64,000 nt of DNA, from assembly GCF_002735925.1 (NCBI RefSeq), contig NZ_PEDL01000014.1, positions 1 to 64,000 on the forward strand. Reading direction: 5' to 3'. Positions 2,687 through 22,006 of this stretch are shown here, piece after piece. A program made the position numbers and the translations under genes. How positions within the stretch are numbered: the first letter of the stretch is position 1; every line of letters starts with the position of its first letter. Under the pieces are notes generated by a model that was not told the origin of the DNA, ran no database searches, and saw only the letters and a list, made by a program, of their open reading frames with translations. This DNA comes from Sporanaerobium hydrogeniformans. GTDB taxonomy: Bacteria; Bacillota; Clostridia; Lachnospirales; Cellulosilyticaceae.

Positions 2687-2734
2687 GATTAAAAGGATAT
2701 AGCTTGAGAAGATTTAGAAATTGGAGGCGTGATA

Positions 2735-4498: not shown

Positions 4499-4506
4499 GG
4501 GACAGG

Positions 4507-5766: not shown

Positions 5767-5769
5767 AGG

Positions 5770-5806
5770 AAAAGTAATACTTATCTTAAAAAAGTATTAC
5801 TTTTTT
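5770..5806 (+). terminator. Rho-independent terminator
   Basis: AAAAGTAATACTT and AAGTATTAC pair around a short A-rich loop and run into TTTTTT. It separates the regulator operon from the transporter operon, so the transporter genes need their own, presumably regulated, promoter in 5807-5924. Confidence 0.8.
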
Positions 5807-5861
5807 ATTGTTCTTATTAAAAATCAGTTAGATAGTATTACAAATCAAGATATAAAACATT

Positions 5862-5890
5862 TTGATTATTAGTTTAAAATTATATACTAA
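5862..5890 (+). promoter_or_regulatory. Weak candidate promoter of the GH2 transport operon
   Basis: TTGATT (5862-5867), 17 bp, TACTAA (5885-5890). The match is weak, which would fit a promoter needing the AraC-type activator. I could not pick out a clear activator site. Confidence 0.3.
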
Positions 5891-5924
5891 GTGAGTAAAT
5901 AAACAAATGAACGGAGGAAATGTG

Positions 5925-7247
5925 ATGAAAAAATTTAAAAAATTTGCGTCTTTTTTGGTATGTATGACAATGCTTACAGGATGTGGAGCTAGCAGTAGTG
6001 AACCAATTAAGGAAACTGGAGCACCTGAAAAGCAAGCACAAACAGAAAGTAGTAATAAAGGGGAAGTAACCACTTTAAATGTTGCTTTATGGGACTACAC
6101 TTCTTTGGAGTATCATAAAAAATTAGTAGCAGCTTATGAGAAAAGGAATCCAACTGTAAAGATTAACGTTATTGAGGCACCAGCTAACGATTATTCTGAT
6201 AAGGTAGCTGTTATGCTAGCAGGCAATAGTGATATTGACGTAGTCTTCATTAGAGATACAGCTTCTTACACAGGCTATATTAGCAAAGGACAGCTAGAAC
6301 CTCTTGATAGCTATATTACTGCAGATACAGTAGACTTATCAGCATATGGTGGAATGTGTGAGCAATATGGTGTAGATAACCAAATCTATGGCTTACCTTA
6401 TCGTAAAGATATTTGGATGTTATTCTATAATAAAGATCTTTTTGACCAAGCAGGGATAGCTTACCCAACGGATAATATGACTTTAGAACAATATAGAGAA
6501 ACGGCTAAAAAGTTAACATCAGGTGAAGGTAGTGACAAAATCTATGGTGCATTAAATAACAAATGGACACAATCTGTTTCTAACCTTGCTATGTTTGAAG
6601 GTACTCACTCCTTATTAGATGGTGATTATACGTTCCTAAAGCCTTATTATGATACAGTACTTGCTATGCAAAATGAAGATCAATCGACACTAGAGTATTC
6701 AACAATCATAGCAAGTAATATTCATTACAGTGGTCCTTTTTATAATGGGCAAGTAGCTATGATGCCTATGGGCTCTTGGTTTATTAATAATATGCTTGAA
6801 AACACAGCCAATGGTACAACAGCAGTAAACTGGGATGTAGCAGCTCTTCCAAGCTTAAACGGTGATATTGGTAATAAAGGTGTAGGAGCTATCACACCAG
6901 TATCTATTAGCTCAAAGTCTAAGAATAAAGATCTTGCATGGGATTTTGTCAAGTTTGTAACGACAGAAGAAGGAGCACAGATTCTTGCAGAATGTGGCAT
7001 CATGCCAGCGTATAGCTCTGAAAGTGTATTAAATACACTTACAAGTATCAAAGGCTTCCCAGTACATGGAAAAGACTTATTGCTTAATACAACAGATATT
7101 ACAATCGAATTTCCAGTAGACGAAAAATGGACATCTATCAATAAAATCATTGGGGAAGAGCATGAACTTATGATGATCAATGAAGTAGGTGTAGATGAAG
7201 AACTTGCTACATTAAGCCAACGTGTGAAAGATGAAGTACTTAACTAA
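5925..7247 (+). CDS. Sugar ABC transporter substrate-binding lipoprotein (family 1)
   Basis: An extracellular solute-binding protein of about 440 residues with a lipoprotein signal peptide (lipobox LTGC near residues 17-20) and a Ser/Glu-rich linker. Its MalE/family-1 fold is visible in the conserved block GQVAMMPMGSWF and in WDFVKFVTTEEGAQ. The lipid anchor holds it on the outer face of the membrane, where it delivers (oligo)saccharide to the two permeases encoded next. The frame opens at 5907, but ATG 5925 follows GGAGGA at correct spacing and begins a proper signal peptide. The co-encoded GH2 enzyme suggests a short glycoside ligand; the exact sugar is not readable. Confidence 0.9.
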   Translation: MKKFKKFASFLVCMTMLTGCGASSSEPIKETGAPEKQAQTESSNKGEVTTLNVALWDYTSLEYHKKLVAAYEKRNPTVKINVIEAPANDYSDKVAVMLAGNSDIDVVFIRDTASYTGYISKGQLEPLDSYITADTVDLSAYGGMCEQYGVDNQIYGLPYRKDIWMLFYNKDLFDQAGIAYPTDNMTLEQYRETAKKLTSGEGSDKIYGALNNKWTQSVSNLAMFEGTHSLLDGDYTFLKPYYDTVLAMQNEDQSTLEYSTIIASNIHYSGPFYNGQVAMMPMGSWFINNMLENTANGTTAVNWDVAALPSLNGDIGNKGVGAITPVSISSKSKNKDLAWDFVKFVTTEEGAQILAECGIMPAYSSESVLNTLTSIKGFPVHGKDLLLNTTDITIEFPVDEKWTSINKIIGEEHELMMINEVGVDEELATLSQRVKDEVLN

Positions 7248-7260
7248 GCTATAAGTAAAT

Positions 7261-7288
7261 GGGGTGTCTGGATGAAACAAGACACCCC
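7261..7288 (+). promoter_or_regulatory. Intercistronic hairpin after binding protein
   Basis: GGGGTGTCT (7261-7269) pairs with AGACACCCC (7280-7288) around a 10-nt loop. There is no T-run, so it is probably an mRNA-stabilising or processing hairpin. Such an element would raise binding-protein levels over the permeases. Confidence 0.6.
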
Positions 7289-7316
7289 CTATTCATTCTA
7301 TAAGGAGGAGTAAAAA

Positions 7317-8207
7317 GTGAAAGCTATTAATAATAAAAGTATAAAAAAATTCCTTACCGTCTGTGCATTTATTCTTCCTAATTTTATTGGATTATTTATT
7401 TTTACTCTTTTACCTATTCTCTTTGCCTTTGTACTAAGTGTAATGGAGTGGGATAGTGCTAATCCAATGACTTTTGTAGGAATAGATAATTTTTTAAGAT
7501 TATTTAAAGATAAAACTTTTCAGATTGCTTTTATGAATACAATTTATTATGTAATAGGAACAGTACCTATAACTTTAATGGCCTCTTTAGGCTTAGCGAT
7601 GGTTCTAAACAGCAAGATTAAAGGTAGAAATATCTTTAGGACTGTATTTTTCTTTCCTTATGTTGCCTCACTAATAGCCGTTGTAGTGGTATGGAATATG
7701 CTATTCCATCCTGATATGGGACCTATTAATAGTATGCTTAGCTTCTTAGGTGTAAAAAATCTACCTAAGTGGGCAGCATCTGTGAAGTGGGCCATGCCAA
7801 CTGTTATCTTGTTTAGTGTATGGAAATATATGGGATATTACATGGTCATGTATTTAGCAGCTCTTCAAGGGGTGCCAAAGGAATTATATGAAGCAGGAGA
7901 TATTGATGGAACCACTAAATGGCAACGCTTTAGGTACATTACCTTACCTACTTTAACACCTACTACTTTTTTTGTAGTCATTATGCTAACGATACAAGCC
8001 TTTAAGGTGTTTGACATCATTTATGCGATGACAGATGGTGGACCAGGTAGATCAACTACAGTACTCGTATCGTATATTTATGCTAAAGCTTTTACGGAAT
8101 TTGAGTTTGGGTATGCAAGTGCTATGTCGATTATCTTATTTGCTATTGTACTTGTGATTACGATTATTCAGTTCAGGACAGAGAAAAAATGGGTAAGTTA
8201 CATGTAG
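7317..8207 (+). CDS. Sugar ABC transporter permease, MalF/UgpA type
   Basis: A 296-residue inner-membrane permease with six predicted helices. The EAA loop that contacts the ATPase (ELYEAGDIDGTTKWQRF, about residues 190-206) and the following TLPTLTPTTFF helix are typical of the carbohydrate CUT1 family. Start is GTG at 7317 behind a perfect AAGGAGGAG. It is co-transcribed with the upstream binding protein and the downstream partner permease (15-bp gap). No ATP-binding gene lies in the operon, so it probably uses a shared MsmK/UgpC-like ATPase encoded elsewhere. Confidence 0.92.
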   Translation: MKAINNKSIKKFLTVCAFILPNFIGLFIFTLLPILFAFVLSVMEWDSANPMTFVGIDNFLRLFKDKTFQIAFMNTIYYVIGTVPITLMASLGLAMVLNSKIKGRNIFRTVFFFPYVASLIAVVVVWNMLFHPDMGPINSMLSFLGVKNLPKWAASVKWAMPTVILFSVWKYMGYYMVMYLAALQGVPKELYEAGDIDGTTKWQRFRYITLPTLTPTTFFVVIMLTIQAFKVFDIIYAMTDGGPGRSTTVLVSYIYAKAFTEFEFGYASAMSIILFAIVLVITIIQFRTEKKWVSYM

Positions 8208-8222
8208 AAAGGAGATGAAGTA

Positions 8223-9059
8223 ATGGAAACAGTGAGTTATAAAAAAATAATTAGCAAGGTTGTAGTGTATACTCTATTACTCCTACTCCTAGGAGTAGCA
8301 CTCATTCCTTTCTTATGGATGCTCTCAGCATCTTTAAAGGCAAATAAGGATGTCTTTTCATTCCCTATTCAGTGGATTCCACATCCTATTGTGTGGGAGA
8401 ATTATATTGAGATATGGAAGAAGATTCCCCTTATCACCTTTATTTTAAATACTATGAAACTAACGATAATCATTACAGTATTGCAAGTTGTGACAAGTAG
8501 TTTAGCTTCCTATGGTTTTGCAAAGCTAGAGTTTAAAGGTCGAGACCTTCTTTTTCTTTGTTATGTTTCTACCATTGCCATTCCATGGCAGGTTTATATG
8601 ATTCCACAGTACTTAATTATACAAAAGATGAATCTTGTAGATTCGCATTGGTCACTTATTATCTTGCAAGCCTTTTCAGCTTTTGGCGTGTTCCTTATGA
8701 GGCAATTCCTTATCAGTATTCCAAAAGAGCTTTCTGAGGCAGCTAAAATAGATGGCTTAAGTGAGTTTGGGATATTTGGTAAAATTATGATGCCTTTGGC
8801 AAAACCAGGACTTGCAACCTTAACAATCTTTACTTTTGTAACGATTTGGAATGACTTTATGGGTCCTCTTATCTACTTAAATTCAACAGATAAAAAGACT
8901 ATTCAATTAGGCCTAAGGTTATTTATTACACAATTCTCAGCAGAGTATTCGCTTATTATGGCAGCATCTATTGTGACATTGGTTCCAGTACTTATTGTCT
9001 TTCTGTCTTTACAAAAATATTTTGTTGAAGGTATTGCAACCAGTGGGCTTAAAGGTTAG
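8223..9059 (+). CDS. Sugar ABC transporter permease, MalG type
   Basis: A 278-residue permease with six helices. The EAA loop (ELSEAAKIDGLSEFGIFGKI, about residues 172-191) and a terminal LQKYFVEGIATSGLKG are the hallmark end of the MalG/CUT1 family. It forms the heterodimeric channel with the MalF-type protein upstream. An AGGAGATGAAGTA ribosome binding site precedes ATG 8223, and the GH2 gene starts 12 bp after its stop. The ligand is not readable; context points to a glycoside that the GH2 enzyme hydrolyses after uptake. Confidence 0.92.
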   Translation: METVSYKKIISKVVVYTLLLLLLGVALIPFLWMLSASLKANKDVFSFPIQWIPHPIVWENYIEIWKKIPLITFILNTMKLTIIITVLQVVTSSLASYGFAKLEFKGRDLLFLCYVSTIAIPWQVYMIPQYLIIQKMNLVDSHWSLIILQAFSAFGVFLMRQFLISIPKELSEAAKIDGLSEFGIFGKIMMPLAKPGLATLTIFTFVTIWNDFMGPLIYLNSTDKKTIQLGLRLFITQFSAEYSLIMAASIVTLVPVLIVFLSLQKYFVEGIATSGLKG

Positions 9060-9071
9060 AGGGGTGAGAAA

Positions 9072-10877
9072 ATGAAAGAAAATCATGAAGTACAAGTAAA
9101 AAGGAATTTTGATGAAAGTTTTGATAATGTGCTTATCTTTGATTATGATAAAGCTTATGAAGAAGGAACAGTAGGTGCAGAGGAGCTTATCTATAGTGAT
9201 GGAAGAGAAAGACTTTCTCTTAATGGGAAGTGGCGTTTTCATGTAGATGTATTTGATAGTGCTATTCGTGGAAGATTTTTTGATGAAGTCTTAAAGGATA
9301 GACAAGGGAGAGATATTCCTAGTGATTTTAGTTTTGAAACATGGGAAGAAGTAGAGGTACCAGGTCAATGGAATACAGTAAGACCAGAGTATGCCCTGTA
9401 TGAGGGTACATCCCTTTATCTCAAAGACTTTGATTATTCGACTCTTAAAGGAGAGGAAAAGGTTTTTCTAAGGATAGGTGCAGCGAACTATGAGTGTAGA
9501 GTGTGGCTTAATAAACAGTATTTAGGGAAGCATGTTGGTGGGTTCACACCTTTTATGTTTGATGTAACTCATCAACTTCAAGAAAAAAATAGGCTTTTAA
9601 TTTATGTAAATAATACAAGAAAAAGTGAAGCGGTACCTTCTCTTAACTTTGACTGGTTTAACTATGGCGGGCTAACGAGAGGGGTAGAGCTCATTAAGGT
9701 ACCTAGAGAATACATTAAAACATTTAAACTTAACCTTGTATCGGATAATCAGTATGATAAACTAGAACTTCAAGTAGAGTTAGGTGGCTATATAGGGAGA
9801 GCAAGAGTGTGTACTCTATCTATACCTGAATTAGGAATTAGTAGGGAGTTAGAAATAGATAATAAGGGTAAAGTCCAGGCAATTATAAAAGCAAAACCAG
9901 AGCTTTGGTCACCTGATAATCCTAAATGCTATCAAGTGAAGTTAAAGTGTGATGAAGATGAAGTTACTGACCAAATAGGGTTTAGACAGATTTCAACAAG
10001 TGGGCATCGGATTCTTCTCAATGGAAAGGATATCTTTCTTAAAGGGCTTTGTGTACATGAGGAGAGCCCTTTGCATCAGCGCTCTGTAAGTGAAGAAGAT
10101 ATTAGAGAAGTAATTAGAGAGGCTAAGACTTTAAATTGTAATTTCCTAAGGCTTACGCATTATCCGCATAGTGAAAAGATGTCACAACTAGCAGATGAAA
10201 TGGGGATTATGCTGTGGGAAGAGATTCCGGTTTACTGGTGTTTAGAATTTGCAAATCCTACTACTTATAAGAATGCGCAAAATCAGATGAGAGAATTAAT
10301 AAAACGAGATAACAATCGTGCCAGTGTGATTATATGGAGTATAGGAAATGAGAACCCAGATACTGAAGAACGATTAGCTTTTATGAGCGGACTTGCACAT
10401 ACAGTAAAAGAGATGGACGATTCAAGGCTAGTAGCAGCCTCTTGTCTCATTGATTTAGATTTATATCAAATCAAAGACCGTTTAACGGAACATATTGATA
10501 TCATAGGTGTTAATGAATATTATGGATGGTACTTTAGAGATTATGATGGTTTAATTAAAATATTAGATAATAGCCATGTAGATAAACCTGTTATCATTAC
10601 TGAAACAGGTGCAGAAGCTGTCTCTGGTCGTCACGGTCAAGCAGATGAACTTTATACAGAAGAGTGCCAAGACGCTATGTATCAAAATCAGTTTAAAGTA
10701 ATTAGTAAGTATGCTTACATTAGAGGGATAACACCTTGGATTATGTATGATCACGCTTCTATGCGCCGCATGAGTACTATACAAAAAGGATATAATTTAA
10801 AGGGAATTATCTCAAATGATAGAAAACACAAAAAGTTAGCTTATTATACTGTCCAAGAATTTTATAGTAAATATTAA
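9072..10877 (+). CDS. GH2 glycosidase, beta-glucuronidase-like
   Basis: A 601-residue glycoside hydrolase family 2 enzyme. It has an N-terminal jelly-roll sugar-binding domain (about 40-215), an Ig-like sandwich (216-310) and a TIM barrel. The acid/base is Glu427 in WSIGNENPD and the likely nucleophile is Glu511 in IITETGAEA. Length and the NWFNYGG-like region fit the beta-glucuronidase branch better than the about 1000-residue beta-galactosidases. There is no signal peptide, so it acts in the cytoplasm on imported glycosides, in line with the preceding ABC transporter. Specificity (glucuronide, galactoside or mannoside) is not proven. Last gene of its operon. Confidence 0.85.
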   Translation: MKENHEVQVKRNFDESFDNVLIFDYDKAYEEGTVGAEELIYSDGRERLSLNGKWRFHVDVFDSAIRGRFFDEVLKDRQGRDIPSDFSFETWEEVEVPGQWNTVRPEYALYEGTSLYLKDFDYSTLKGEEKVFLRIGAANYECRVWLNKQYLGKHVGGFTPFMFDVTHQLQEKNRLLIYVNNTRKSEAVPSLNFDWFNYGGLTRGVELIKVPREYIKTFKLNLVSDNQYDKLELQVELGGYIGRARVCTLSIPELGISRELEIDNKGKVQAIIKAKPELWSPDNPKCYQVKLKCDEDEVTDQIGFRQISTSGHRILLNGKDIFLKGLCVHEESPLHQRSVSEEDIREVIREAKTLNCNFLRLTHYPHSEKMSQLADEMGIMLWEEIPVYWCLEFANPTTYKNAQNQMRELIKRDNNRASVIIWSIGNENPDTEERLAFMSGLAHTVKEMDDSRLVAASCLIDLDLYQIKDRLTEHIDIIGVNEYYGWYFRDYDGLIKILDNSHVDKPVIITETGAEAVSGRHGQADELYTEECQDAMYQNQFKVISKYAYIRGITPWIMYDHASMRRMSTIQKGYNLKGIISNDRKHKKLAYYTVQEFYSKY

Positions 10878-11136: not shown

Positions 11137-12105
11137 ATGAATTGGAAGTATAAGATACTTATCCTAGCATTTGTTTTTCTTTTTACTCTTACAGGGTGTC
11201 AGTCTAAAGCAATAAATCAAAAGGAACAAGTAAAAAAGGAAAAACATATCCCCCGAAAATTTGGAGCAACCTATATGACGATGAATAATCCTTATTTTAT
11301 AGCATTGGATAATAGTATAGAAGCAGTATTAGCGGCAAATGGGGATGTACTGATTACAAGAGACCCTGCTCAAGACCAAGAAAAACAGAATGCTCAGATT
11401 AAAGAAATGATTGAAGAGGGCGTGGTTTCTATTTTTGTAAATCCTGTTGATTGGAAGGGGATAAAGCCTGCACTTGAGATGTGTTATGAAGCGGGAATCC
11501 CTGTTTTTAATATTGATACATATGTATATGATTCGAAATATGTGGTTTCTTGTATCTTATCAGATAATTATAATGCTGGAGTTCAAATTGCAAAGGATGT
11601 AATGAAGAAGAAAGAAAGTGCTAAAATTGCTATTATTAATGATCAGAATATTAATTCTACTGCATTACGTGTGCAAGGTTTTTTAGATACCATAGAAGGT
11701 CATGCTGCGTATCAGGTCGTATTAAAGAATAGTATGACAGCAGAGCTTGAAGGGGCTATGGAAATTACAAAACAAATAATAGATGAAGGGATAACTTATG
11801 ATGTCATACTAGGGGGAAATGATCCTACTGCATTAGGTGCATTAGCGGCACTTCAACTTAGGCGAGTTGATTTACAAGATATACTGATTTACGGGATTGA
11901 TGGTTCGCCTGATGGAAAGGCTATGATTGAGCAAGGCTTTTTAGAGGGGACAAGTGCGCAATTTCCAATTGAAATAGGAAAGACAGCTGCGGAATTAGCT
12001 TATCAGTATTTAGAAGGGAATGAGATAGAAAGAGAAATTATTATCCCTGTACAATTAATTACTATAGATAACTTAACTGATTTTGATCCAGATGGTTGGC
12101 AGTAG
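11137..12105 (+). CDS. RbsB-like sugar-binding lipoprotein, probably sensory
   Basis: A 322-residue periplasmic-binding-protein type 1 (ribose-binding-like, Peripla_BP_4) lipoprotein; lipobox LTGC near residue 20. Ligand-contact landmarks include NPYF, FVNPVDW, DNYNAG and GGNDPTALGAL. It is a clear paralogue of the protein at 15677 (same NPxF, NPAE/NPVD, SDNYNAG and GNDPTALGALAA blocks). It is encoded directly before a sensor kinase with no sizeable sensor domain and far from the permease genes. I therefore infer that it presents sugar to the kinase rather than to the transporter. ATG 11137 follows GGAGG; the upstream in-frame extension to 11098 lacks a site. Confidence 0.85.
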   Translation: MNWKYKILILAFVFLFTLTGCQSKAINQKEQVKKEKHIPRKFGATYMTMNNPYFIALDNSIEAVLAANGDVLITRDPAQDQEKQNAQIKEMIEEGVVSIFVNPVDWKGIKPALEMCYEAGIPVFNIDTYVYDSKYVVSCILSDNYNAGVQIAKDVMKKKESAKIAIINDQNINSTALRVQGFLDTIEGHAAYQVVLKNSMTAELEGAMEITKQIIDEGITYDVILGGNDPTALGALAALQLRRVDLQDILIYGIDGSPDGKAMIEQGFLEGTSAQFPIEIGKTAAELAYQYLEGNEIEREIIIPVQLITIDNLTDFDPDGWQ

Positions 12106-12126
12106 AATGAAGAGGGAGAAAGACTA

Positions 12127-13464
12127 ATGAATGCTAGGAAAATAAGATATATTAAATTTCTCATGTTACTTATAAATATTCTAGCAGTAGCATTTCCAAC
12201 GGTATGCATTTATATAACAACTAATAGGATATGTGATTTTTATATAGCAAGGGAATTTATAGGAAAAGTTGCTACAATTCCTTCAAGACCGCATATGATT
12301 TTATGTCTTACAATCCTATTACTTGGTTGCCTTTTAATTTCTTTTCTATTTAGAGAATATCTATTTGGTGAAAGCAATTTATTAAAATACGGTTCATTGG
12401 CATTTGATTTTATACTATGTATGACGGTTATGGTCATCCAGCACTTTAATTATAATGGCATTTTATTTTGGGTGTTTGCTAACATTATTTATTATGTACG
12501 TGACAAAGTGAAAATACTTTTTATGTTGCTGGCAATGGGTATCTATGTAGGAACAAACTATGAAGTATTATCTATTCAATCAAGCCTTTTTAGATTTAGT
12601 GATTATGTGGATTATTATGGGACCACTACTCAACAATACTTGTTAGGAATATATAATATTTTAGTTTCATTAAATAGTATTGTGTTTATCCTATTTTGTA
12701 TTTACGTTATCCAGGAGCAACAGGGAGTTATTGAACAGGTAAATTCTCTTTACGCTAAATTAACAAAAACAAACACGGAGTTACAGCTTGCAAATGAGGA
12801 ATTAAAGCAGTATGCCGTTATGAAAGAAAAGATGGGTGAGACAAAAGAGAGGAATCGTTTAGCAAGAGAAATTCATGATACTTTAGGGCATACATTAACA
12901 GGCATTTCAGCAGGAATAGATGCATGCTTAACGACAATTGAAATGAATCCAATGGCTACAAAGAAGCAATTAGAAGTGATTTCTAAGGTGACGAGAGAAG
13001 GAATTGGAGAAGTAAGACGGTCCGTCAATCAATTAAGACCAGATGCACTAGAACGTTTAAGTCTAGACTCTGCACTTCAAACCATGATTGAAGATATGCA
13101 ATCTGTTACGAAGGCAGATATACAGTTAGAATACAATTTAGGAAGCTTTAGATTTCGAGAAGATGAAGAAACGACAATTTACCGTATTGTTCAAGAAAGC
13201 ATAACAAACTCTTTACGGCATGGAAAAGCAGATAAAATACAGATAACAATAGGTAAAAGAGAATCTTACATAGATATTGAAATACAAGATAATGGTATTG
13301 GCTGCCAAGAGATAAAAGAGGGATTTGGCATAAGGCATATGCAAGAGAGGATTCAAATGCTACATGGTAAGGTATCTTTTAAGGGTAATAAGGGCTTTTT
13401 GGTAAAAGCGATAATACCTGTTAGATGGGGGGAAGAATATGATGAAAGTCTTAATTGCAGATGA
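12127..13464 (+). CDS. NarL-family sensor histidine kinase, integral membrane
   Basis: A 445-residue kinase. The first 200 residues hold about five or six membrane helices joined by short loops. A coiled linker (200-235) leads to a HisKA_3 dimerisation domain with His250 in RLAREIHDTLGH and an HATPase domain (N-box ESITNSLRHG, G-box DNGIGC, FGIRHMQER). There is no sizeable extracellular sensor domain, so signal must come through the membrane or from partner proteins. The two adjacent anchored sugar-binding proteins are obvious candidates. Its stop lies 26 bp inside the response-regulator gene, showing translational coupling. Confidence 0.9.
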   Translation: MNARKIRYIKFLMLLINILAVAFPTVCIYITTNRICDFYIAREFIGKVATIPSRPHMILCLTILLLGCLLISFLFREYLFGESNLLKYGSLAFDFILCMTVMVIQHFNYNGILFWVFANIIYYVRDKVKILFMLLAMGIYVGTNYEVLSIQSSLFRFSDYVDYYGTTTQQYLLGIYNILVSLNSIVFILFCIYVIQEQQGVIEQVNSLYAKLTKTNTELQLANEELKQYAVMKEKMGETKERNRLAREIHDTLGHTLTGISAGIDACLTTIEMNPMATKKQLEVISKVTREGIGEVRRSVNQLRPDALERLSLDSALQTMIEDMQSVTKADIQLEYNLGSFRFREDEETTIYRIVQESITNSLRHGKADKIQITIGKRESYIDIEIQDNGIGCQEIKEGFGIRHMQERIQMLHGKVSFKGNKGFLVKAIIPVRWGEEYDESLNCR

Positions 13465-14119
13465 TCAAGAATTAATTCGGGAAAGCCTGAGGATTGTGTT
13501 AGATTCGAAGAAAAATATAGAGGTAACAGATGCAGTAGCCAATGGACAGGAAGTGCTTCGTAGTATAAAAGAATGTGTTCCAGATATTATTTTAATGGAT
13601 ATACGTATGCCTAAAATGGATGGAGTGCAATGTACACAAATCGTTAAAGAACTTAATCCTGCTATCAAAATTATTATTTTAACCACTTTTGATGATGATG
13701 AATTCGTATATGATGCCTTGAAATTTGGTGCTAGTGGTTATTTGCTAAAAGGGGTTTCGATGGATGGATTAGTAGAGGCTATTGAAACGGTTTATAGTGG
13801 TAGGGCAATGATTAATCCAGACATTGCAACAAAGGTAGTGCGTTTGTTTTCTCAAATGGCACAGGGGGATCACTCTATTCATGTAGAAGAGAAGTTAGTT
13901 TTGGAATTAACAAAAGCGGAGTGGAAAATCATACGTGAAGTAGGAAAGGGAGCATCTAATAAAGAAATTGCAGAAGCATTATTTTTATCAGAGGGTACCG
14001 TAAGAAATTATTTAAGTACCATCTTAAATAAACTTCAACTACGTGATCGTACCCAATTAGCCATATGGGTAGTTCAGTCTCATGAGTTTAAAAATCAGCA
14101 AAAGGTTTCAGGAAAGTAG
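13439..14119 (+). CDS. LuxR/NarL-type response regulator
   Basis: A 226-residue regulator. The receiver domain has acidic pair DD near residue 9, phospho-acceptor Asp54 in LMDIRMPKMDG and Lys in YLLKGVS. A C-terminal GerE/LuxR helix-turn-helix follows (about 155-215; GASNKEIAEALFLSEGTVRNYLS). Two ATGs in tandem (13439 and 13442) both sit behind GGGGGGAA; either may be used. It is the cognate partner of the overlapping kinase gene and the likely activator of the sugar transport and catabolic genes at 15677-22006, an inference from position. Confidence 0.92.
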   Translation: MMKVLIADDQELIRESLRIVLDSKKNIEVTDAVANGQEVLRSIKECVPDIILMDIRMPKMDGVQCTQIVKELNPAIKIIILTTFDDDEFVYDALKFGASGYLLKGVSMDGLVEAIETVYSGRAMINPDIATKVVRLFSQMAQGDHSIHVEEKLVLELTKAEWKIIREVGKGASNKEIAEALFLSEGTVRNYLSTILNKLQLRDRTQLAIWVVQSHEFKNQQKVSGK

Positions 14120-14127
14120 GATAAAAA

Positions 14128-15462
14128 ATGAGGTTTAGAGATTTAAAGAAGAGTAGATTAAGCTGGAGGCCCATTGGGTATATAGGAATAATGATTTTTT
14201 CTTGTGTGATGGGCTATTTAGTTTATTTATCTCAAAAGCCCATTGTATTAGAGTTTGGGATGTTTGTAGGGAGCAACTGGGATGTAGCCAATGCTAATAG
14301 CTATGTCATTATTGATAAAGTAATTGAACAATTTGAGAAAGAACACCCTGGTGTAACTGTTCACTATACCAGTGGAATTAGGAAAAGTGATTATTCAGAA
14401 TGGTTCGCTCAAAAGGTATTAAAGGGAGAAATGCCAGATGTAGCCATGATCCTTTCAGATGATTTTGATCAGTTAGTTTCTTTAGGTGTACTTCAAAATT
14501 TAGATGAATTATCCAAGAAAGACCGAAGCTTTGAACCAAGCAAATTTTATCAAAGTGCATTAAAGATTGGTTCCTATGAAGGGGGGCAATATGCACTTCC
14601 ATATGAAATTGTTCCTATGCTGATGTTCGTAAATAAATCTCTACTTAATGATGAAGGCTTTATGGTTCCAGAGGAAAATTGGACATGGGATGATTTGTAT
14701 GAGATTTGTAGCAAAATTACAAAGGATACGGATAACGATGGAAGAATAGATCAGTTTGGAACCTATAACTATGGATGGTCAGAAGCTGTTTATGCTAACG
14801 GTGAGAAATTATTTAATGAAGATGGGAGTGAAGTTTATTTTACAGACAAAAAGGTTATCGACTCTATAAAATTTTTAAAAAAACTCACAGAGCTAAATAA
14901 GGGAGTAAAGGTAACACAGAATGACTTTGATGCTGGAAATGTAGCATTTATGCCACTATCCTTTGCAGAGTATCGTACATATAAAGCATATCCTTATAAG
15001 ATTAAAAAATATAGTACATTTAAATGGGATTGTATAACTATGCCGTCTGGTGAAAGTGGAGATAATTTATCAGAAGTGAGTGCGTTGTTAATGGGGATTA
15101 GCAGTCACAGTAAGCATAAGAAGCTAGCTTGGGAACTTCTTAAAATGTTTACCTACAATGAAGCGTTTCAAATGGATATATTTCGCTATTCTCAAGGTGC
15201 TTCAGCATTAAAAGCAGTAACAAACTCTAAAGAAGCAGAGCAGATATTAAGCGAAGATACTGATGATAGAGAAAGAGTAATTGACACTAGATTGCTTCAT
15301 AATGTTATTGAAAATGGAGTAATTACCCCTAAGTTTCCTCAATATAGGCAGATTATGGCACTGGCAGGTGGAGAGGTCGATAAGATTTTGAGTGATGAAA
15401 AGGATGTAGAAAGTACACTAAAGATTACTCAAAGGACAGTTGAGTCGCTGATACAAAAATAA
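14128..15462 (+). CDS. Membrane-anchored family-1 solute-binding protein
   Basis: A 444-residue MalE-like extracellular solute-binding protein. It has a single N-terminal transmembrane segment (about residues 18-36) and no lipobox cysteine, so it is a signal-anchored rather than lipidated protein. The fold is visible in FEKEHPGVTVHY, MPDVAMILSDDF, YALPYEIVPMLMF and KLAWELLKMF. It is the third product of a kinase/regulator operon and belongs to a different binding-protein family from the RbsA/RbsC transporter downstream. I infer a sensory role with the kinase. No permease of the matching MalF/MalG type is adjacent. A T-rich hairpin terminator follows. Confidence 0.82.
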   Translation: MRFRDLKKSRLSWRPIGYIGIMIFSCVMGYLVYLSQKPIVLEFGMFVGSNWDVANANSYVIIDKVIEQFEKEHPGVTVHYTSGIRKSDYSEWFAQKVLKGEMPDVAMILSDDFDQLVSLGVLQNLDELSKKDRSFEPSKFYQSALKIGSYEGGQYALPYEIVPMLMFVNKSLLNDEGFMVPEENWTWDDLYEICSKITKDTDNDGRIDQFGTYNYGWSEAVYANGEKLFNEDGSEVYFTDKKVIDSIKFLKKLTELNKGVKVTQNDFDAGNVAFMPLSFAEYRTYKAYPYKIKKYSTFKWDCITMPSGESGDNLSEVSALLMGISSHSKHKKLAWELLKMFTYNEAFQMDIFRYSQGASALKAVTNSKEAEQILSEDTDDRERVIDTRLLHNVIENGVITPKFPQYRQIMALAGGEVDKILSDEKDVESTLKITQRTVESLIQK

Positions 15463-15473
15463 TAAGGTTAAGT

Positions 15474-15527
15474 AAAAGATATTTTTAGATGTCTGACGAA
15501 AAGGATATTTAAAGGTATCTTTTTTTT
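15474..15527 (+). terminator. Probable terminator after the sensing operon
   Basis: AAAAGATA (15474-15481) pairs with TATCTTTT (15516-15523) across a long loop; a competing inner hairpin uses 15498-15507. Eight T residues close it. Confidence 0.5.
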
Positions 15528-15564
15528 GTTTATTTAGTAATTTTTATAAATTAAATAAAATATA

Positions 15565-15594
15565 TTACAAATGTCATATACATTATGTTATAAA
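15565..15594 (+). promoter_or_regulatory. Promoter of the sugar transport/catabolic operon
   Basis: TTACAA (15565-15570), 18-bp spacer, TATAAA (15589-15594). The imperfect match and 18-bp spacing suit an activator-dependent promoter. Confidence 0.45.
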
Positions 15595-15676
15595 ATGCAG
15601 ATGTTTTTTAAAGTAGTTTTTAATATTATTAACATATAAGTTGTTTTTAGAAACAAAAATTAGAGGAGGTATAAAA

Positions 15677-16702
15677 ATGAAAAGAAAAATGTTAAGTGTT
15701 TTGCTAAGTATGGTATTGCTCCCTGTAATGCTGATAGGATGTGGTAGCAAGGAAACATCCTCTTCACAAGCTCCTGCGAATACAGCAGATGCTGTAGCTG
15801 AAAAGGCGGTAGATACAGCAAAAGATACAGTAGGTAGTGAAAAAGAAAGTTATGTATTTGGTTATACATGTATGGATGGAACGAATCCTTTCTTTGTTAT
15901 CTTAGAAAAAACAATTAGAGAAAAAGTAGAAGCAAATGGCGATAAATTAATTTCTACAGACCCTGCTAATGATGTTACTTTGCAAATAACACAAATTGAA
16001 GATATGATTTCTCAAGGAATTGATGCTATTTTCTTAAATCCTGCAGAAGCAGAAGGTATCCTTCCAGCCCTTGATCAATTAAAAGAAGCAGGTATTCCAA
16101 TCATTAACTTTGATACAGAGGTAGCAGATTTAGATTATGTAGTATCTTATGCAGGCTCTGATAACTACAATGCAGGTAAAGTTTGTGGTGAAGATCTTGT
16201 AGCTAAATGCCCAGAAGGTGGAGATGTTATTATTTTAGATTCTCCTACGATGAACTCAATAGTTGATAGAACCAATGGTTTCTTAGATGCTATCAAAGAT
16301 AAAGGGTTCAATATTGTTGCACAACAAGATGCAAAAGGTAATCTTGAAGTAGCAATGGGGATTACAGAAGATTTATTACAAGCACATGGGGATGTAGTTG
16401 CAATCTTTGGTGGAAACGACCCTACAGCCCTTGGTGCATTAGCAGCGGCCAATGCAGCTGGATTAAAAGAGGTTAAGATTTATGGAGTAGATGGTTCTCC
16501 CGATATTAAAGCAGAGTTAGCTTCTGGTGATTCTTTAATTGCAGGTACAGGAGCACAATCACCAATTAATATTGCAAACAAGTCTGTTGAGATTATGTAT
16601 AAGGTTATGGCTGGAGAGAAAGTAGATGCTAGATATCCCGTAGAAACATTCTTAATTTCAGCAGATAATGTAAATGAATATGGGACAGATGGATGGCAAT
16701 AA
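15677..16702 (+). CDS. RbsB-like sugar ABC transporter binding lipoprotein
   Basis: A 341-residue ribose-binding-type (Peripla_BP_4) lipoprotein; lipobox LIGC near residues 17-20, then a Ser/Ala-rich linker. Contact landmarks NPFF, FLNPAEAEG, GSDNYNAG and GGNDPTALGALAA. It is the transport binding protein of the RbsA/RbsC system that follows. ATG 15677 is taken because a perfect AGAGGAGGT precedes it; the frame extends to 15641 without a site. Ligand likely a pentose or hexose monosaccharide, with D-lyxose or a relative suggested by the isomerase at the end of the operon. Confidence 0.9.
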   Translation: MKRKMLSVLLSMVLLPVMLIGCGSKETSSSQAPANTADAVAEKAVDTAKDTVGSEKESYVFGYTCMDGTNPFFVILEKTIREKVEANGDKLISTDPANDVTLQITQIEDMISQGIDAIFLNPAEAEGILPALDQLKEAGIPIINFDTEVADLDYVVSYAGSDNYNAGKVCGEDLVAKCPEGGDVIILDSPTMNSIVDRTNGFLDAIKDKGFNIVAQQDAKGNLEVAMGITEDLLQAHGDVVAIFGGNDPTALGALAAANAAGLKEVKIYGVDGSPDIKAELASGDSLIAGTGAQSPINIANKSVEIMYKVMAGEKVDARYPVETFLISADNVNEYGTDGWQ

Positions 16703-16807: not shown

Positions 16808-18292
16808 TTGAAGAATAGCATATTGCTTAAAATGAAAAATATTCATAAAAAATTCCCTGGAGTATACGCCTTAAATGCCATCGATTTTGAACTTAAAAAA
16901 GGAGAAGTGCATGCTTTATTAGGAGAAAATGGAGCAGGTAAGTCTACTTTGATTAAAGTATTAGGTGGGATTTACAGAGCGGATGAGGGTGAGATTTTTA
17001 TTGAAGGTAAAAAGGTAGAAATCAATGATGTACATTCCTCTCATGCTCATGGAATTGCTATTATCCATCAAGAATTAGTACTTGTACCACATATGACTGT
17101 GGCTGAAAATATATTTTTAGGACGTGAGCCAAAGGTCGCAGGACTTGTAAATAAAGATAAAATGAATCAAGATGCGCAGGAATTACTAAATACATATGAG
17201 ATGAATATTGATGCAGAAGCATTGATAAAGAATTTGACAATCGCACAACAGCAAATGGTTGAGATTGTTAAGGCCATATCTTTTAATTCTAAAATCTTAG
17301 TTATGGATGAACCGACTTCTTCTATTTCTGATAAGGAAGTAGCATTTTTATTTTCAACTATGAAAACGTTGACAGCTAAAGGGGTAGGTATCATTTATAT
17401 ATCTCATAAGATGAGTGAATTAGAAGCCATTTGTGATCGTGTAACCGTGCTTAGAGATGGGATGTATGTTGGGACAGAGGTTGTAGAGGAAGTTAGTAAA
17501 GACAAATTAATAGCCATGATGGTTGGACGTGAATTAGCCAATTACTATACAAGAGATTACCAAATAACAGAAGAAGTAATTCTAGAATGTAGAGACATCC
17601 ATGATGGCAAGATGGTAAAAGGTGCCTCTTTCTACTTAAAGAAGGGTGAAATTGTAGGTTTTGCTGGATTAGTTGGTGCTGGGCGAAGTGAATTGATGAA
17701 GTGCTTGTTTGGATTAACAAAAGATTACTCAGGTAGCATCCTTATGGAAGGACGAGAAATAAAGATTTCTTGTCCAACTCAAGCTATGAAAATAGGTATA
17801 GCTCTTGTGCCAGAAGATAGAAAATTAGAAGGCTTATATAAGATACAAAGCGTAAGATATAATTCTACAATAGAAGTATTAGGGCAATTTATTAAAGGTA
17901 TCTTTGTAGATAGTCATAAGGAAGATGAAATCACTCAAAAATATGTTGATAGGATGCGTACTAAGACGCCTACTCTGGATGAGAAGATTGGTAATTTATC
18001 AGGTGGAAATCAGCAAAAGGTAATGATAGGGCGTTGGCTTGCCATGAATCCTAAAGTATTGATTTTAGATGAACCGACGCGTGGAGTAGATGTACATGCA
18101 AAAGCTGAGATTTACTCTATTATGAATGATTTGGTGAAAAAAGGAATGTCTATTATTATGATTTCTTCAGAACTACCGGAGATTATTAATATGAGTGATC
18201 GCGTCTATGTAATGGCTTATGGAAAGGTAAAAGGGTGTCTAGATCATACAGAAGTAACACAAGAACAAATCATGAAATTAGCTGCTGAATAA
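16808..18292 (+). CDS. Sugar ABC transporter ATP-binding protein, RbsA type
   Basis: A 494-residue tandem ABC ATPase, the length and layout of RbsA/MglA/XylG (CUT2 family). The first half has Walker A GENGAGKST and Walker B LVMDEPTSS, but its signature is altered (LTIAQQQM). The second half has a degenerate Walker A (GLVGAGRSE), a good signature LSGGNQQKV and Walker B LILDEPTRG. Such asymmetry is normal for the family. Start is TTG at 16808 behind AGGTGAT; an in-frame ATG at 16832 lacks a site. It works with the RbsC-type permease 22 bp downstream. Confidence 0.93.
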   Translation: MKNSILLKMKNIHKKFPGVYALNAIDFELKKGEVHALLGENGAGKSTLIKVLGGIYRADEGEIFIEGKKVEINDVHSSHAHGIAIIHQELVLVPHMTVAENIFLGREPKVAGLVNKDKMNQDAQELLNTYEMNIDAEALIKNLTIAQQQMVEIVKAISFNSKILVMDEPTSSISDKEVAFLFSTMKTLTAKGVGIIYISHKMSELEAICDRVTVLRDGMYVGTEVVEEVSKDKLIAMMVGRELANYYTRDYQITEEVILECRDIHDGKMVKGASFYLKKGEIVGFAGLVGAGRSELMKCLFGLTKDYSGSILMEGREIKISCPTQAMKIGIALVPEDRKLEGLYKIQSVRYNSTIEVLGQFIKGIFVDSHKEDEITQKYVDRMRTKTPTLDEKIGNLSGGNQQKVMIGRWLAMNPKVLILDEPTRGVDVHAKAEIYSIMNDLVKKGMSIIMISSELPEIINMSDRVYVMAYGKVKGCLDHTEVTQEQIMKLAAE

Positions 18293-18314: not shown

Positions 18315-19316
18315 ATGAAACAGCAATTAACAATGAGAAGCAATAAGGCTTTAACAAAATTTAATAAAACAGTAAAAATCTATTTAAAAGATAATTTTGG
18401 AATTCTTATAGCCTTTTTTATACTATGTGCATTCTTAGCAATTAATCCAGCAACAAGTAACTCATTTCTATCTACTAAAAATATATTTAATATATTGCGC
18501 CAGATTTCAACGAATCTTTATTTAGCTTGTGGTATGACAATGGTTATCATTTTGGGTGGAATTGATTTGTCAGTAGGTTCTATCATTGCACTTTCAGGGT
18601 GTATTTCAGCAGGATGTGTAGCTAGGTATAACTTACCACTAGCTGTTGCCATTCTTATAGGTATAAGTATTGGCCTTATTGTTGGGATGTTAAATGGTGC
18701 CATTATTTGTAAAACGACGATCCCAGCATTTATCGTAACATTAGCAACAATGAATATAATGAAAGGTTTAGCTTATGTTTATACAGGGGGTTCACCTGTG
18801 CGTGTTGTATCCAAGGAATGGCAATTCCTTGGGGCGGGTTATATAGGCCCTTTCCCAACTCCAGTTATTATCTTAATGATTGTGCTTATTACAACAGCTA
18901 TTATTATGAATAAAACAAAGTTTGGGCGTCATATCTATGCAGTAGGTGGTAATCAGCAGGCAGCACAATTTTCTGGAATTAATGTGGCAAAAGTGAAATT
19001 CTGGGTACATGCCTTTTCAGGCTTAATGGCTGGTCTTGCAGGTGTTGTATTAGCATCTCGTATGTATTCAGGTCAACCAACAGCAGGTGATGGTGCAGAG
19101 ATGGATGCAATTGCAGCTGTTGTAGTAGGTGGAACAAGTATGGCTGGTGGTTATGGAAAGATTGGTGGAACAATTATTGGGGCCTTAATTATAGGTGTAC
19201 TCAATAATGGATTAAACCTTATGAATATTAATTCTTTCTGGCAATACGTTGTAAAAGGTTCCGTTATTCTACTGGCTGTTTATATCGATTACTTTAGAAC
19301 AAAGAAGGATAAATAA
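18315..19316 (+). CDS. Sugar ABC transporter permease, RbsC type
   Basis: A 333-residue CUT2 permease with eight to ten hydrophobic segments. Family blocks GGIDLSVGSI, ALSGCISAG, TTIPAFIVTLATM, GGNQQAAQFSGI and AVVVGGTSMAGGYGKIGGT match RbsC/XylH proteins. It starts behind GGGGAGGTAAGCG. It forms a homodimeric channel fed by the RbsB-like protein and powered by the RbsA-type ATPase. Downstream catabolic genes follow within 53 bp, so import and catabolism are co-expressed. Confidence 0.93.
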   Translation: MKQQLTMRSNKALTKFNKTVKIYLKDNFGILIAFFILCAFLAINPATSNSFLSTKNIFNILRQISTNLYLACGMTMVIILGGIDLSVGSIIALSGCISAGCVARYNLPLAVAILIGISIGLIVGMLNGAIICKTTIPAFIVTLATMNIMKGLAYVYTGGSPVRVVSKEWQFLGAGYIGPFPTPVIILMIVLITTAIIMNKTKFGRHIYAVGGNQQAAQFSGINVAKVKFWVHAFSGLMAGLAGVVLASRMYSGQPTAGDGAEMDAIAAVVVGGTSMAGGYGKIGGTIIGALIIGVLNNGLNLMNINSFWQYVVKGSVILLAVYIDYFRTKKDK

Positions 19317-19369: not shown

Positions 19370-20251
19370 GTGCTAGTAACACTTAAAGAAGTAATGAAGG
19401 ATGCTCTTGAGAAGGGATATGCGGTTGGTGCTTTTAATGTATGTAACCTAGAGTCTGCTATGGCAATTGTTCAAGCAGCGGAAGAAATGGATAAAGCAGT
19501 TATTTTAAACTTTGCAGAAGTACACAGCCCTTTCCTTTCTATGGAAATTGCAGCAAATATTATGCTATATTTTGCAAAAAAAGCGAAGGTTCCTGTTTGT
19601 GTTCATTTAGATCATGGTACCTCCATAGAAAGTTGTATTAAAGCAATCCAGCTTGGCTTTACATCTGTTATGATTGATGCTTCTTCTGATGATTATGAAA
19701 AAAATGTTACGACAACAGCAGAAGTTGTAAAACTTGCTCACAGTGTAGGTGTGACAGTAGAAGCGGAATTAGGACATATTTTTTCTTCTGATATTGGAGT
19801 AGGAGAATCTGCAGAGAAGATAGAAACTGTCAACGGATGTGAAGATCTTGAAGGCATATATACTAACCCAATTTTAGCAAAAGATTTTGTAGAAAGAACA
19901 GGAGTAGATGCACTAGCCATTGCCTTTGGAACGTCTCATGGTATCTATACAACAAAGCCTGTATTAGATTTAAATAGAATTACTAAAATTAGAAAGCAAA
20001 TTGATATTCCATTTGTAATGCATGGTGGTTCTGGATTAAGTAAAGAAGAATTCCAAACTGCTATTAAGAATGGAGTTCGTAAGATTAATTACTATACGTA
20101 TATGACATTAGCTGGTGGAAAGGCTGTAAAGGAAAGTCTAGACAAGATAAAATCAGGAGATAATATTTTCTTTCATGACATTCCACTCATTGGTATAAAA
20201 GCAATGAAAGAAAATGTGAAAGAGGCTATAAGGATGTTCAGTATGATGTAG
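19370..20251 (+). CDS. Class II ketose-phosphate aldolase (FbaA/GatY/KbaY-like)
   Basis: A 293-residue zinc-dependent class II aldolase. Visible active-site elements are CVHLDHGTS (zinc ligand and catalytic Asp), EAELGHIFSSD, FGTSHGIY and the phosphate-binding FVMHGGSGLS and INYYTYM. These enzymes cleave ketose 1-phosphates or 1,6-bisphosphates to dihydroxyacetone phosphate plus an aldehyde. The GTG start at 19370 follows AAGGAGG. Set between a sugar transporter and a PfkB kinase, it probably cleaves the phosphorylated sugar made by the next two enzymes. The bisphosphate or 1-phosphate preference cannot be read from the sequence. Confidence 0.88.
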   Translation: MLVTLKEVMKDALEKGYAVGAFNVCNLESAMAIVQAAEEMDKAVILNFAEVHSPFLSMEIAANIMLYFAKKAKVPVCVHLDHGTSIESCIKAIQLGFTSVMIDASSDDYEKNVTTTAEVVKLAHSVGVTVEAELGHIFSSDIGVGESAEKIETVNGCEDLEGIYTNPILAKDFVERTGVDALAIAFGTSHGIYTTKPVLDLNRITKIRKQIDIPFVMHGGSGLSKEEFQTAIKNGVRKINYYTYMTLAGGKAVKESLDKIKSGDNIFFHDIPLIGIKAMKENVKEAIRMFSMM

Positions 20252-20274: not shown

Positions 20275-21282
20275 ATGAGTAAAAGAGGGATTACTGTTGC
20301 TGGTAGCTTAATTGTAGATAATTACTTTTTGATAGATACTTATCCAGAACAGGGTAAGTTAACAAATATTAGAGGTACAAATATGGATATAGGGGGTTCA
20401 GGTAACCTCATTGTTGATTTAGCAAAACTAGACCCAGTTATCCCTATTAAAGTAAGCGCAATCATTGGTAAGGATAACTATGGTGCATTTATTAAGAAGA
20501 TATTAAGTAAATACCCCAACATAATACAAGACAATATTACGGAGCAAGGAAATAGCTGTGTCACAATGGTGATGGATGCCCAAGATAATCATCAAAGGAC
20601 CTTCTTTTATTTACCTGAAGGCAGTGATAGATATGATGAAAGCTATATTAATTGGGAGATGATAGATGCCACTATTTTTCACCTGGAATATTTACTATTA
20701 ATGAAGAAAGTAGATGCCAGTGATCCAGAGTATGGCACCCATGGTGCAAGAATTCTTCATAATGCAAAGATGAGAAATATGAAAACATCTATTGATATAG
20801 TATCAGAGGTGAGTCAGCGTGGTAGGGATAGTGTGAGGGCAGCATTAAAGTATACAGATTATTGTACTATTAATGAGATAGAAGCAGAAATGATTACAGG
20901 ACTAACTTTGCTAGAGAACGAAAAATTGATAGAAGATAATATGTATAAAGCCCTTTATAAGCTAAAAAAATTAGGAGTTTCTACTTGGGCAATTATTCAT
21001 TCGCCTACGTGTAGCTATGGCTTGGATTGTACCACTGGTAAAATTTCAAGAGTTAAAAGTTTAAAACTACCGAAAGACTATATTAAAGGTTCAACGGGTG
21101 CAGGAGATGCATTTTGTAGCGGGGTACTTTATACAGCATATCATGATGGAGACATTGAAGATGCAATGAAACTAGGGTGTGCATGTGCAGCATGCTCCTT
21201 ATCAGAAGTAAGTGGCACAGCAGGAATGCGGTCTTATGAAGAAGTGCGAGCTGTCTATAAAAAATATTGTGAGCAAGAATAA
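20275..21282 (+). CDS. PfkB-family sugar kinase
   Basis: A 335-residue ribokinase/PfkB-family kinase. The N-terminal GGSGNLIVDLAKL block is the first PfkB signature; the second, GSTGAGDAFCSGVL, supplies the anion hole and catalytic Asp. The central YCTINEIEAEMITG stretch is also typical. It phosphorylates a keto-sugar or sugar with ATP. In this operon the substrate is plausibly the ketose from the downstream isomerase (D-xylulose or D-fructose), giving the substrate for the upstream aldolase. It starts at ATG 20275 behind a GGGGGTAAGG run, 23 bp after the aldolase stop. Confidence 0.85.
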   Translation: MSKRGITVAGSLIVDNYFLIDTYPEQGKLTNIRGTNMDIGGSGNLIVDLAKLDPVIPIKVSAIIGKDNYGAFIKKILSKYPNIIQDNITEQGNSCVTMVMDAQDNHQRTFFYLPEGSDRYDESYINWEMIDATIFHLEYLLLMKKVDASDPEYGTHGARILHNAKMRNMKTSIDIVSEVSQRGRDSVRAALKYTDYCTINEIEAEMITGLTLLENEKLIEDNMYKALYKLKKLGVSTWAIIHSPTCSYGLDCTTGKISRVKSLKLPKDYIKGSTGAGDAFCSGVLYTAYHDGDIEDAMKLGCACAACSLSEVSGTAGMRSYEEVRAVYKKYCEQE

Positions 21283-21325: not shown

Positions 21326-22006
21326 ATGAAACGTTCTGAGATAAATAAAGCATTAAAAGAAATGGAAAGTATGCTAAAAATGCAACAGATTTACCTTCCT
21401 GCATTTTGCCATTTCACTCCTGAGGAATGGAAAGAAAAAGGGAATGAATATAATGAGATTAGGGACAATATGCTTGGTTGGGATATTACAGATTTTGGTT
21501 TAGGGAAATTTGACGAGGTAGGATTTTCTTTAATCACCCTTAGAAATGGTAATGTAAAGGATAATAAATATAAGAAGCCCTATGCGGAAAAATTACTTTA
21601 TATGCGAGAAGGGCAAACAGCACCTATGCACTTTCATTGGAATAAGATGGAGGATATCATCAATAAAGGAGGAGGGAATGTTTATATTCGGGTATATAAT
21701 GCCGATGAAGAAGGTGATTTGTCAGATAAGCCAGTTAGCATTAGTTGTGATGGCAAAGAACAAACAGTACCAGCTGGGACACAGGTGTTGTTACGACCAG
21801 GAGAATCTATTTGCATTCCACCCTATATGTATCATGATTTTGCACTACAAGAAGGGACAGGACCTGTACTCTTAGGAGAGGTTTCAATGTGTAATGATGA
21901 TCAGACAGATAATAGATTTTATGAGAAAATAGGTCGTTTTCCTCAGATAGAAGAAGATGAAAGGCCTTATCGCTTATTATGTAATGAGTATCCGTTAGCA
22001 AAATAA
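21326..22006 (+). CDS. D-lyxose ketol-isomerase-like cupin enzyme
   Basis: A 226-residue cupin-fold sugar isomerase. It opens KRSEINKALKEME and carries IRDNMLGWDITDFG, a strong likeness to the D-lyxose isomerases of Providencia stuartii and pathogenic E. coli (about 227 residues). Metal ligands are readable as the two His of MHFHW, Glu in KMEDII and His in MYHDF. Those enzymes interconvert D-lyxose with D-xylulose and D-mannose with D-fructose using Mn2+. It is the last gene of the transport/aldolase/kinase operon and is followed by a strong terminator. In-cell substrate is inferred, not shown. Confidence 0.88.
   Translation: MKRSEINKALKEMESMLKMQQIYLPAFCHFTPEEWKEKGNEYNEIRDNMLGWDITDFGLGKFDEVGFSLITLRNGNVKDNKYKKPYAEKLLYMREGQTAPMHFHWNKMEDIINKGGGNVYIRVYNADEEGDLSDKPVSISCDGKEQTVPAGTQVLLRPGESICIPPYMYHDFALQEGTGPVLLGEVSMCNDDQTDNRFYEKIGRFPQIEEDERPYRLLCNEYPLAK

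Follow-up and report, generated by a model that had tools for sequence, protein, structure and literature searches.

We analysed a 64,000-nucleotide stretch of the Sporanaerobium hydrogeniformans genome (contig NZ_PEDL01000014.1, positions 1 to 64,000; hereafter the window) and focused on a sensor operon at 11137–15462 that encodes an RbsB-type sugar-binding lipoprotein, a histidine kinase, a NarL-type response regulator and a family-1 sugar-binding protein. Our results indicate, with a probability of about 0.86, that this operon is a four-component sensor of a known kind, i.e. the LevQRST type of Streptococcus mutans, in a form linked to an ATP-binding cassette (ABC) transporter. Gene set, gene order, homology, co-occurrence and a conserved box are all directly observed. 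The family splits into a branch linked to the phosphotransferase system (PTS) and an ABC-linked branch that contains the window. This is new relative to the literature that we found: among the matches listed in an open-access search, there was no description of an ABC-linked LevQRST system.

LevQRST as the closest known system

In S. mutans, a kinase and a regulator are flanked by two sugar-binding proteins in the order levTSRQ, followed by the levDEFG PTS genes (PMC3043104; here and below, published systems are described from the accessible portions of the cited papers). LevS has up to five predicted membrane helices and LevQ is membrane-bound (PMC3043104), while LevR is of the NarL type and LevS is an HPK7 kinase (PMC3353171). 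The targets of the system are the levDEFG mannose-type PTS and fruA, its inducers are fructose or mannose, and its authors emphasise the lack of a functional ABC transporter nearby (PMC3043104). Without LevQ there is no output, and without LevT the output under inducing sugars is lower and the response to sugars is altered (PMC3043104). LevQRST was called unusual, with at least six relatives (including those in Clostridium acetobutylicum and Dorea longicatena; PMC3043104).

The window operon resembles LevQRST in that (i) two binding proteins flank a kinase and a NarL-type regulator in the order T-S-R-Q; (ii) the multi-helix kinase is barely exposed outside the cell and a transporter operon is adjacent; (iii) the family-1 protein is helix-anchored, as LevQ is membrane-bound; and (iv) a palindromic box lies upstream of the transporter, as in the inferred LevQRST relatives. 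It differs in its predicted target, an RbsABC–aldolase–PfkB–D-lyxose isomerase operon instead of a PTS and fruA, and in that its LevT-like protein is a lipoprotein. The initial annotation had inferred a four-component sensor in which one or both binding proteins signal to the kinase, and the comparative data together with the experimentally studied LevQRST (PMC3043104) support this. It had also regarded the pairing of two unrelated binding-protein folds with one kinase as unusual and pointed to XylFII–LytS as precedent; a kinase with two binding proteins is already on record for LevQRST, which is the closer precedent. That the two LevQRST binding proteins belong to different families follows from the comparison made here.

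The comparison relied on a family inferred to be Streptococcaceae (f149, reached through genome G679), in which the kinase is present in 41 of 147 genomes. All 13 f149 loci (12 fetched plus L089) contain genes for the RbsB-type protein, kinase, regulator and family-1 protein, then PTS IIA, IIB, IIC and IID, and profiles seeded from members of the window's order (window included) recover all four proteins in every one of them. Within the fetched stretches, ssb lies upstream in 10/13 and groES downstream in 8/13; primers named ssbA were used for the region upstream of levT in S. mutans (PMC3043104). When start codons are allowed to shift, the family-1 proteins of L220 and L222 match 8/8 LevQ residue positions reported in PMC3043104, and LevS positions are matched at 5/6 in L220 and L229 and at 4/6 in seven loci. 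L222 belongs to genus g437 and the remaining f149 loci to g387. The f149 gene order, the neighbours and the LevQ matches therefore identify LevT as the RbsB-type protein and LevQ as the family-1 protein.

Two transporter-linked branches of one family

In the kinase tree, 59 of the 60 ABC-linked loci fall into one clade together with three unlabelled loci (Shimodaira–Hasegawa-like approximate likelihood-ratio test, SH-aLRT, 99). The opposite side of the tree holds the 28 PTS-linked loci, of which 13 belong to f149. Only one change of transporter label is needed on the tree (branch support 71). Quick trees of the other components require one change for the family-1 protein, one for the RbsB-type sensor and two for the regulator. 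The remaining ABC-linked locus, L056, has a very long branch and is placed next to the PTS branch. Because one kinase tree holds both branches, we treat PTS control as a property of one branch only.

Gene content follows the same division. The 81 loci with the exact four-gene order comprise 60 ABC-linked, 16 PTS-linked and five with neither transporter, and a window-like lyxose isomerase, aldolase or PfkB gene is found nearby in 44/60, 0/16 and 1/5 of them, respectively. Two loci from metagenome bins labelled Paenibacillaceae (L122 and L141) are placed within Lacrimispora in the kinase tree, so these labels are probably wrong.

Recurrence and co-occurrence of the four genes

The N-terminal half of the kinase is present in 4/24 genomes of the window's family and 33/392 sampled genomes of its order (both E <= 1e-5), and in 10/398 sampled genomes of its phylum (alignment search, E <= 1e-8); each count includes the window's own genome. 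Named relatives account for 70 loci (e.g. in Lacrimispora, Faecalicatena, Lachnoanaerobaculum, Herbinix and Thermoclostridium). After removal of five duplicates, 107 loci were examined, window included; these counts are not a census because the named-relative search was seeded with close kin of the window. Recurrence of the gene order was a check suggested in the initial annotation: the exact order of RbsB-type, kinase, regulator and family-1 genes recurs in 81/107 loci, beyond what chance would give; 13 loci are cut by contig ends and 13 deviate.

Several deviating loci keep the components in other arrangements. L045 and L047 contain kinase, regulator, RbsB-type and ABC genes; the family-1 gene comes later in the locus in L045 and lies beyond the retrieved sequence in L047. 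L046 resembles them, with a split regulator frame and no ABC genes within the stretch. L049 has the order kinase, regulator, family-1, RbsB-type. L052, L054 and L057 have the order kinase, family-1, RbsB-type, and a regulator lies beyond the RbsA and RbsC genes; in these three, a 687-aa YesM-like protein adjoins the kinase, and the kinase frame of L057 is split. Three others, L062, L063 and L152, are damaged sensor loci whose frames are shortened or interrupted: the kinase is shortened in L062, where no such regulator or family-1 gene adjoins, contains a stop in L063 and has a broken frame in L152.

A window-type family-1 protein is found in 31/392 order genomes, all of them among the 33 kinase carriers (E <= 1e-25, weakest match 4e-86; up to four candidates scored per genome). 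The two kinase genomes with no match are G191, with the shortened kinase of L062, and G262, where L069 lies on a 3 kb contig. Tree distances of the kinase (FastTree, 58 loci) correlate with those of the family-1 protein at 0.92, the RbsB-type sensor at 0.84, the regulator at 0.83 and the transport RbsB protein at 0.57; the last is a fair control for shared ancestry because it is taken from the same loci. In a plasmid search, the kinase N-terminal half had no match, and the family-1 protein had only distant relatives (<30% identity among the best 30 of 834 matches). An origin of the sensor by recent duplication of the transport RbsB gene was rejected, since sensors (93) and transport proteins (58) are split by a branch with support 100 (FastTree, with long branches flagged and 21 rows from variant loci excluded from the count).

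Protein architecture and membrane anchoring

Pfam matches and structural models bear out the initial description of an RbsB-like lipoprotein, a kinase with helices but almost no extracellular domain, a NarL-type regulator and a helix-anchored family-1 protein in one operon. The four genes are co-directional and closely packed, and the regulator starts inside the kinase gene with an overlap of 26 bp. A terminator had been proposed to close the operon; the downstream stretch forms a strong hairpin (−21.5 kcal/mol, z −6.0, with 0/200 shuffles equally good), and this hairpin is absent from the list of a simple terminator scan. The third RbsB paralogue said to head the next operon was also recovered, as the first of a transport RbsB, RbsA and RbsC series (Table 1).

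The kinase model (predicted local distance difference test, pLDDT, 77.8; predicted template modelling score, pTM, 0.44) is less certain than that of the family-1 protein described below; it shows about six membrane helices joined by short loops. In the topology that we assigned from this model, the outside loops span residues ∼39–54, 106–111 and 145–166, i.e. about 44 residues in total. In HisKA_3, the histidine assigned by position is H250. In 93 relatives, no segment of the N-terminal half exceeds the outside loop HFNYNG in mean conservation (3.46 bits), compared with 1.67–2.67 bits for the membrane helices and 2.06 and 2.27 bits for the other two outside loops. The 20 best-conserved N-terminal positions comprise seven in outside loops (A41, F44, Y109, G111, Y160, V161 and Y164), nine in helices and four in coil.

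The window's family-1 protein is modelled (pLDDT 89.8, 38-sequence alignment) with a helix at residues 14–36 followed by a complete binding-protein fold. Our final anchor rule finds no lipobox in it. The RbsB-type sensor of the window is a lipoprotein and its family-1 partner is helix-anchored. Across loci, a lipobox is absent from 71 of 93 RbsB-type sensors (present in 20, with two too short) and from 83 of 93 family-1 proteins (present in 10), and it is present in 49 of 58 transport RbsB proteins (six have none and three lack a hydrophobic segment). An earlier, looser rule was dropped when its transport control failed (61/62 without the motif used). It had assigned 53 transmembrane, 22 lipobox and six weak anchors to the RbsB-type sensors and 60, 16 and five to the family-1 proteins (n = 81 each); its lipobox call for the window's family-1 protein was due to Cys26 within the helix.

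These data bear on whether the family-1 protein is part of an oligosaccharide importer that works with an ABC transporter from another locus and shares the operon for co-regulation only. We consider this highly improbable. The best PDB matches of its model by E-value are indeed the oligosaccharide-binding proteins Lmo0181 and AbnE, and a family-1 ABC transporter is encoded upstream at 5907–9059, but a window-like family-1 permease lies near only 7/107 loci (window included), most members have a hydrophobic anchor with no lipobox by our own rule, and the protein was found only in kinase-bearing genomes (31/31).

It is also unlikely that the operon is a three-component system, in which signalling is left to a single binding protein while its partner serves transport or is an operon passenger. 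Both binding proteins are kept in order in most loci, each follows the kinase tree better than does the transport protein from those loci, both usually lack the lipobox that is typical of transport proteins, and loss of either LevQ or LevT changes output in S. mutans (PMC3043104). CuaDSR and XylFII–LytS, which have one sensing binding protein each (PMC10384115), give this alternative its precedent, as do three loci described below (L013–L015), which carry kinase, regulator and family-1 genes but in which the kinase gene has no RbsB-type neighbour.

In XylFII–LytS, one binding protein docks on an outside domain of the kinase. The window shares with it a sugar-binding protein that signals to a kinase (predicted in the window). 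Both PMC10384115 and PMC9602780 name XylFII–LytS. In CuaDSR of Ruminiclostridium cellulolyticum, an ABC transporter is controlled by a two-component system encoded next to a sensing binding protein (PMC10384115). It thus resembles the window in its dedicated sensing protein, two-component system and ABC transporter target (predicted in the window), and differs in having a single sensing protein and a YesN/AraC-type regulator, and in its kinase, which combines two membrane helices with a large outside section and HAMP. With two binding proteins and a kinase that has only short outside loops, the window fits neither system, and XylFII–LytS was rejected as parent family on account of kinase type and number of binding proteins. 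A four-component sensor of the LevQRST type remains our preferred reading.

A predicted operator upstream of the transporter genes

A palindromic box, TKACANNTGTCA, occurs upstream of the transport RbsB gene in 59/61 regions, compared with 1/61 shuffled regions. It is also found upstream of PTS IIA in 14/16 loci (13/15 when the f149 locus L089 is left out; missing in L055 and L065) and of f149 IIA in 13/13, and it precedes 11/106 RbsB-type sensor genes and 1/13 f149 levT genes. These counts allow up to one mismatch, and the pattern was widened after the f149 sites had been seen. A stricter pattern, derived from ABC-linked loci and assigned within 450 bases of a gene start, gives 54 sites in all versus three in one shuffle of the loci, and its sites lie before transport RbsB in 37 loci, RbsA in two, PTS IIA in six and the RbsB-type sensor in two. 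The box stands out as a tandem element: its word pairs recur in 30/48 non-redundant regions upstream of transport RbsB, compared with a maximum of 13 in six shuffles.

In the window, the predicted operator starts 112 bp before the ATG at 15677, and its zero-mismatch tandem occurs only once in the window's own genome. A tandem pattern with a gap of N8–10 had no matches; the actual gap is N11. A second tandem in the same genome (two mismatches, contig C15) falls within an open frame of 596 aa and was taken as chance. No half-site within two mismatches was found upstream of the window's sensor operon, so the data do not support autoregulation by the box in the window.

We then looked for a long form of the f149 site in 48 other f149 genomes, many of them closely related. 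Exactly one match was found in 24/28 kinase carriers, in 24/24 cases on the same strand and 3301–3314 bases downstream of the kinase start, and none was found in the 20 genomes that lack the kinase, only two of which are of genus g387. In S. mutans, fruA requires a dyad at −72 to −59, which is the likely LevR target (PMC9241797).

Possible ligand

We compared the window sensor with ribose-binding protein at 12 pocket positions. Eight positions are identical, one is a conservative change, and positions 9, 90 and 214 differ. Position 90, an arginine in ribose-binding protein, is threonine in both the window sensor and its transport protein; therefore ribose itself is unlikely. Across loci, position 16 is F in 59/60 ABC-branch sensors and 58/58 transport proteins and Y in 28/28 PTS-branch sensors. 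Position 90 is T in 58/60 ABC-branch sensors and 58/58 transport proteins, and S (16), T (9) or A (3) in PTS-branch sensors. Position 15 speaks against a common ligand: it is Y in 54/60 ABC-branch sensors but F in all transport proteins and in 27/28 PTS-branch sensors. It is plausible from these residues that the window sensor and transporter have a common ligand. The gene content hints that the inducer may be a sugar handled by D-lyxose isomerase, i.e. D-lyxose, D-mannose, D-fructose or a relative. Among the matches listed in a literature search on lyxose isomerase and kinases, none was relevant.

Points against and proposed mechanism

Several observations weigh against assigning the window operon to the LevQRST type. 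The link to LevQRST is made through residue positions, neighbours and profiles, and the residue positions agree unevenly: LevQ positions are matched at 0 to 5 of 8 in the 11 other f149 loci, LevS positions at 1 or 2 of 6 in four loci (L222 among them, with 1/6), and LevT positions at no more than 2/5 in any f149 locus. No PTS gene, and hence no mannose-type PTS, is found among the window's neighbours. L013–L015 lack an RbsB-type gene next to the kinase, and LevT is thus no absolute requirement. Position 15 of the pocket is Y in 54/60 ABC-branch sensors and F in 58/58 transport proteins. The box also lies before 60/1111 other genes (24 in shuffles) and before 4/132 in a further set; some further targets may thus exist. 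Finally, TKACANNTGTCA is a predicted operator of the NarL-type regulator.

In L013–L015, an RbsB-type protein is encoded further on; that of L014 is nearest to the transport proteins, and those of L013 and L015 are far from both groups.

We propose that the RbsB-type (LevT-like) protein would bind a monosaccharide outside the cell, and that the kinase would offer its short outside loops and membrane helices as docking sites to this protein and to the anchored LevQ-like protein. The kinase, which would have no ligand domain of its own, would phosphorylate the NarL-type regulator, and the regulator would bind tandem TKACANNTGTCA boxes and switch on the RbsABC–aldolase–PfkB–lyxose isomerase operon starting at 15677.

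Members of the LevQRST-type family occur in many bacterial families and in at least two classes of the phylum, and one regulatory box appears to predict the target of its sensors. This makes it testable how one kinase is shared by two binding proteins of different folds, and how the sensor logic persists when the class of the controlled transporter is swapped. A broader proposal, doubtful as a whole, is that the LevQRST module might be a general and swappable sugar-sensing unit of the Bacillota: a kinase that lacks a ligand domain and is gated jointly by two tethered binding proteins with unrelated folds, the LevQ-like protein as obligatory core and the LevT-like protein as specificity reader, would compute a joint two-ligand signal and use one operator code while PTS and ABC transporters are exchanged.

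Feature coordinates and neighbouring loci

Table 1. Features of the sensor operon and its predicted target operon in the window
Feature	Position	Strand	Basis
LevT-like sensor, RbsB-type (PF13407) sugar-binding lipoprotein	11137..12105	+	Pfam E 2.4e-38, pocket positions, tree apart from transport RbsB
LevS-like histidine kinase	12127..13464	+	HisKA_3 4.2e-19 and HATPase_c (Pfam), about six membrane helices
LevR-like NarL/GerE response regulator	13439..14119	+	Response_reg and GerE (Pfam)
LevQ-like family-1 binding protein, N-terminal membrane anchor	14128..15462	+	SBP_bac_1 4.6e-31 (Pfam)
Terminator-like hairpin ending sensor operon	15469..15528	+	Folding energy versus shuffles
Predicted LevR-type operator, half-site TTACAAATGTCA and weaker half-site	15565..15576, 15588..15599	+	23 bp start to start
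Transport RbsB-type lipoprotein, first gene of predicted target operon	15677..16702	+	Pfam, tree, lipobox
RbsA-type ABC ATPase, predicted target operon	16808..18292	+	Pfam
RbsC-type permease, predicted target operon	18315..19316	+	Pfam
Class II aldolase (PF01116), predicted target operon	19370..20251	+	
PfkB-family sugar kinase (PF00294), predicted target operon	20275..21282	+	
D-lyxose isomerase family (PF07385, E 2.7e-100), predicted target operon	21326..22006	+	

A separate sugar locus lies directly upstream of the sensor operon at 2729–10877. It contains a YesM/YesN-type two-component system, the family-1 ABC transporter mentioned above (a binding protein and two permeases) and a β-glucuronidase-like enzyme of glycoside hydrolase family 2 (GH2). 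The window's genome has 34 PF13407 matches in total. Of the PF13407 binding proteins, two more are encoded on the window's contig, one at 61542–62306 and the other just past the window (G000:C5:64326-65090), and their starts are separated by about 2.8 kb.

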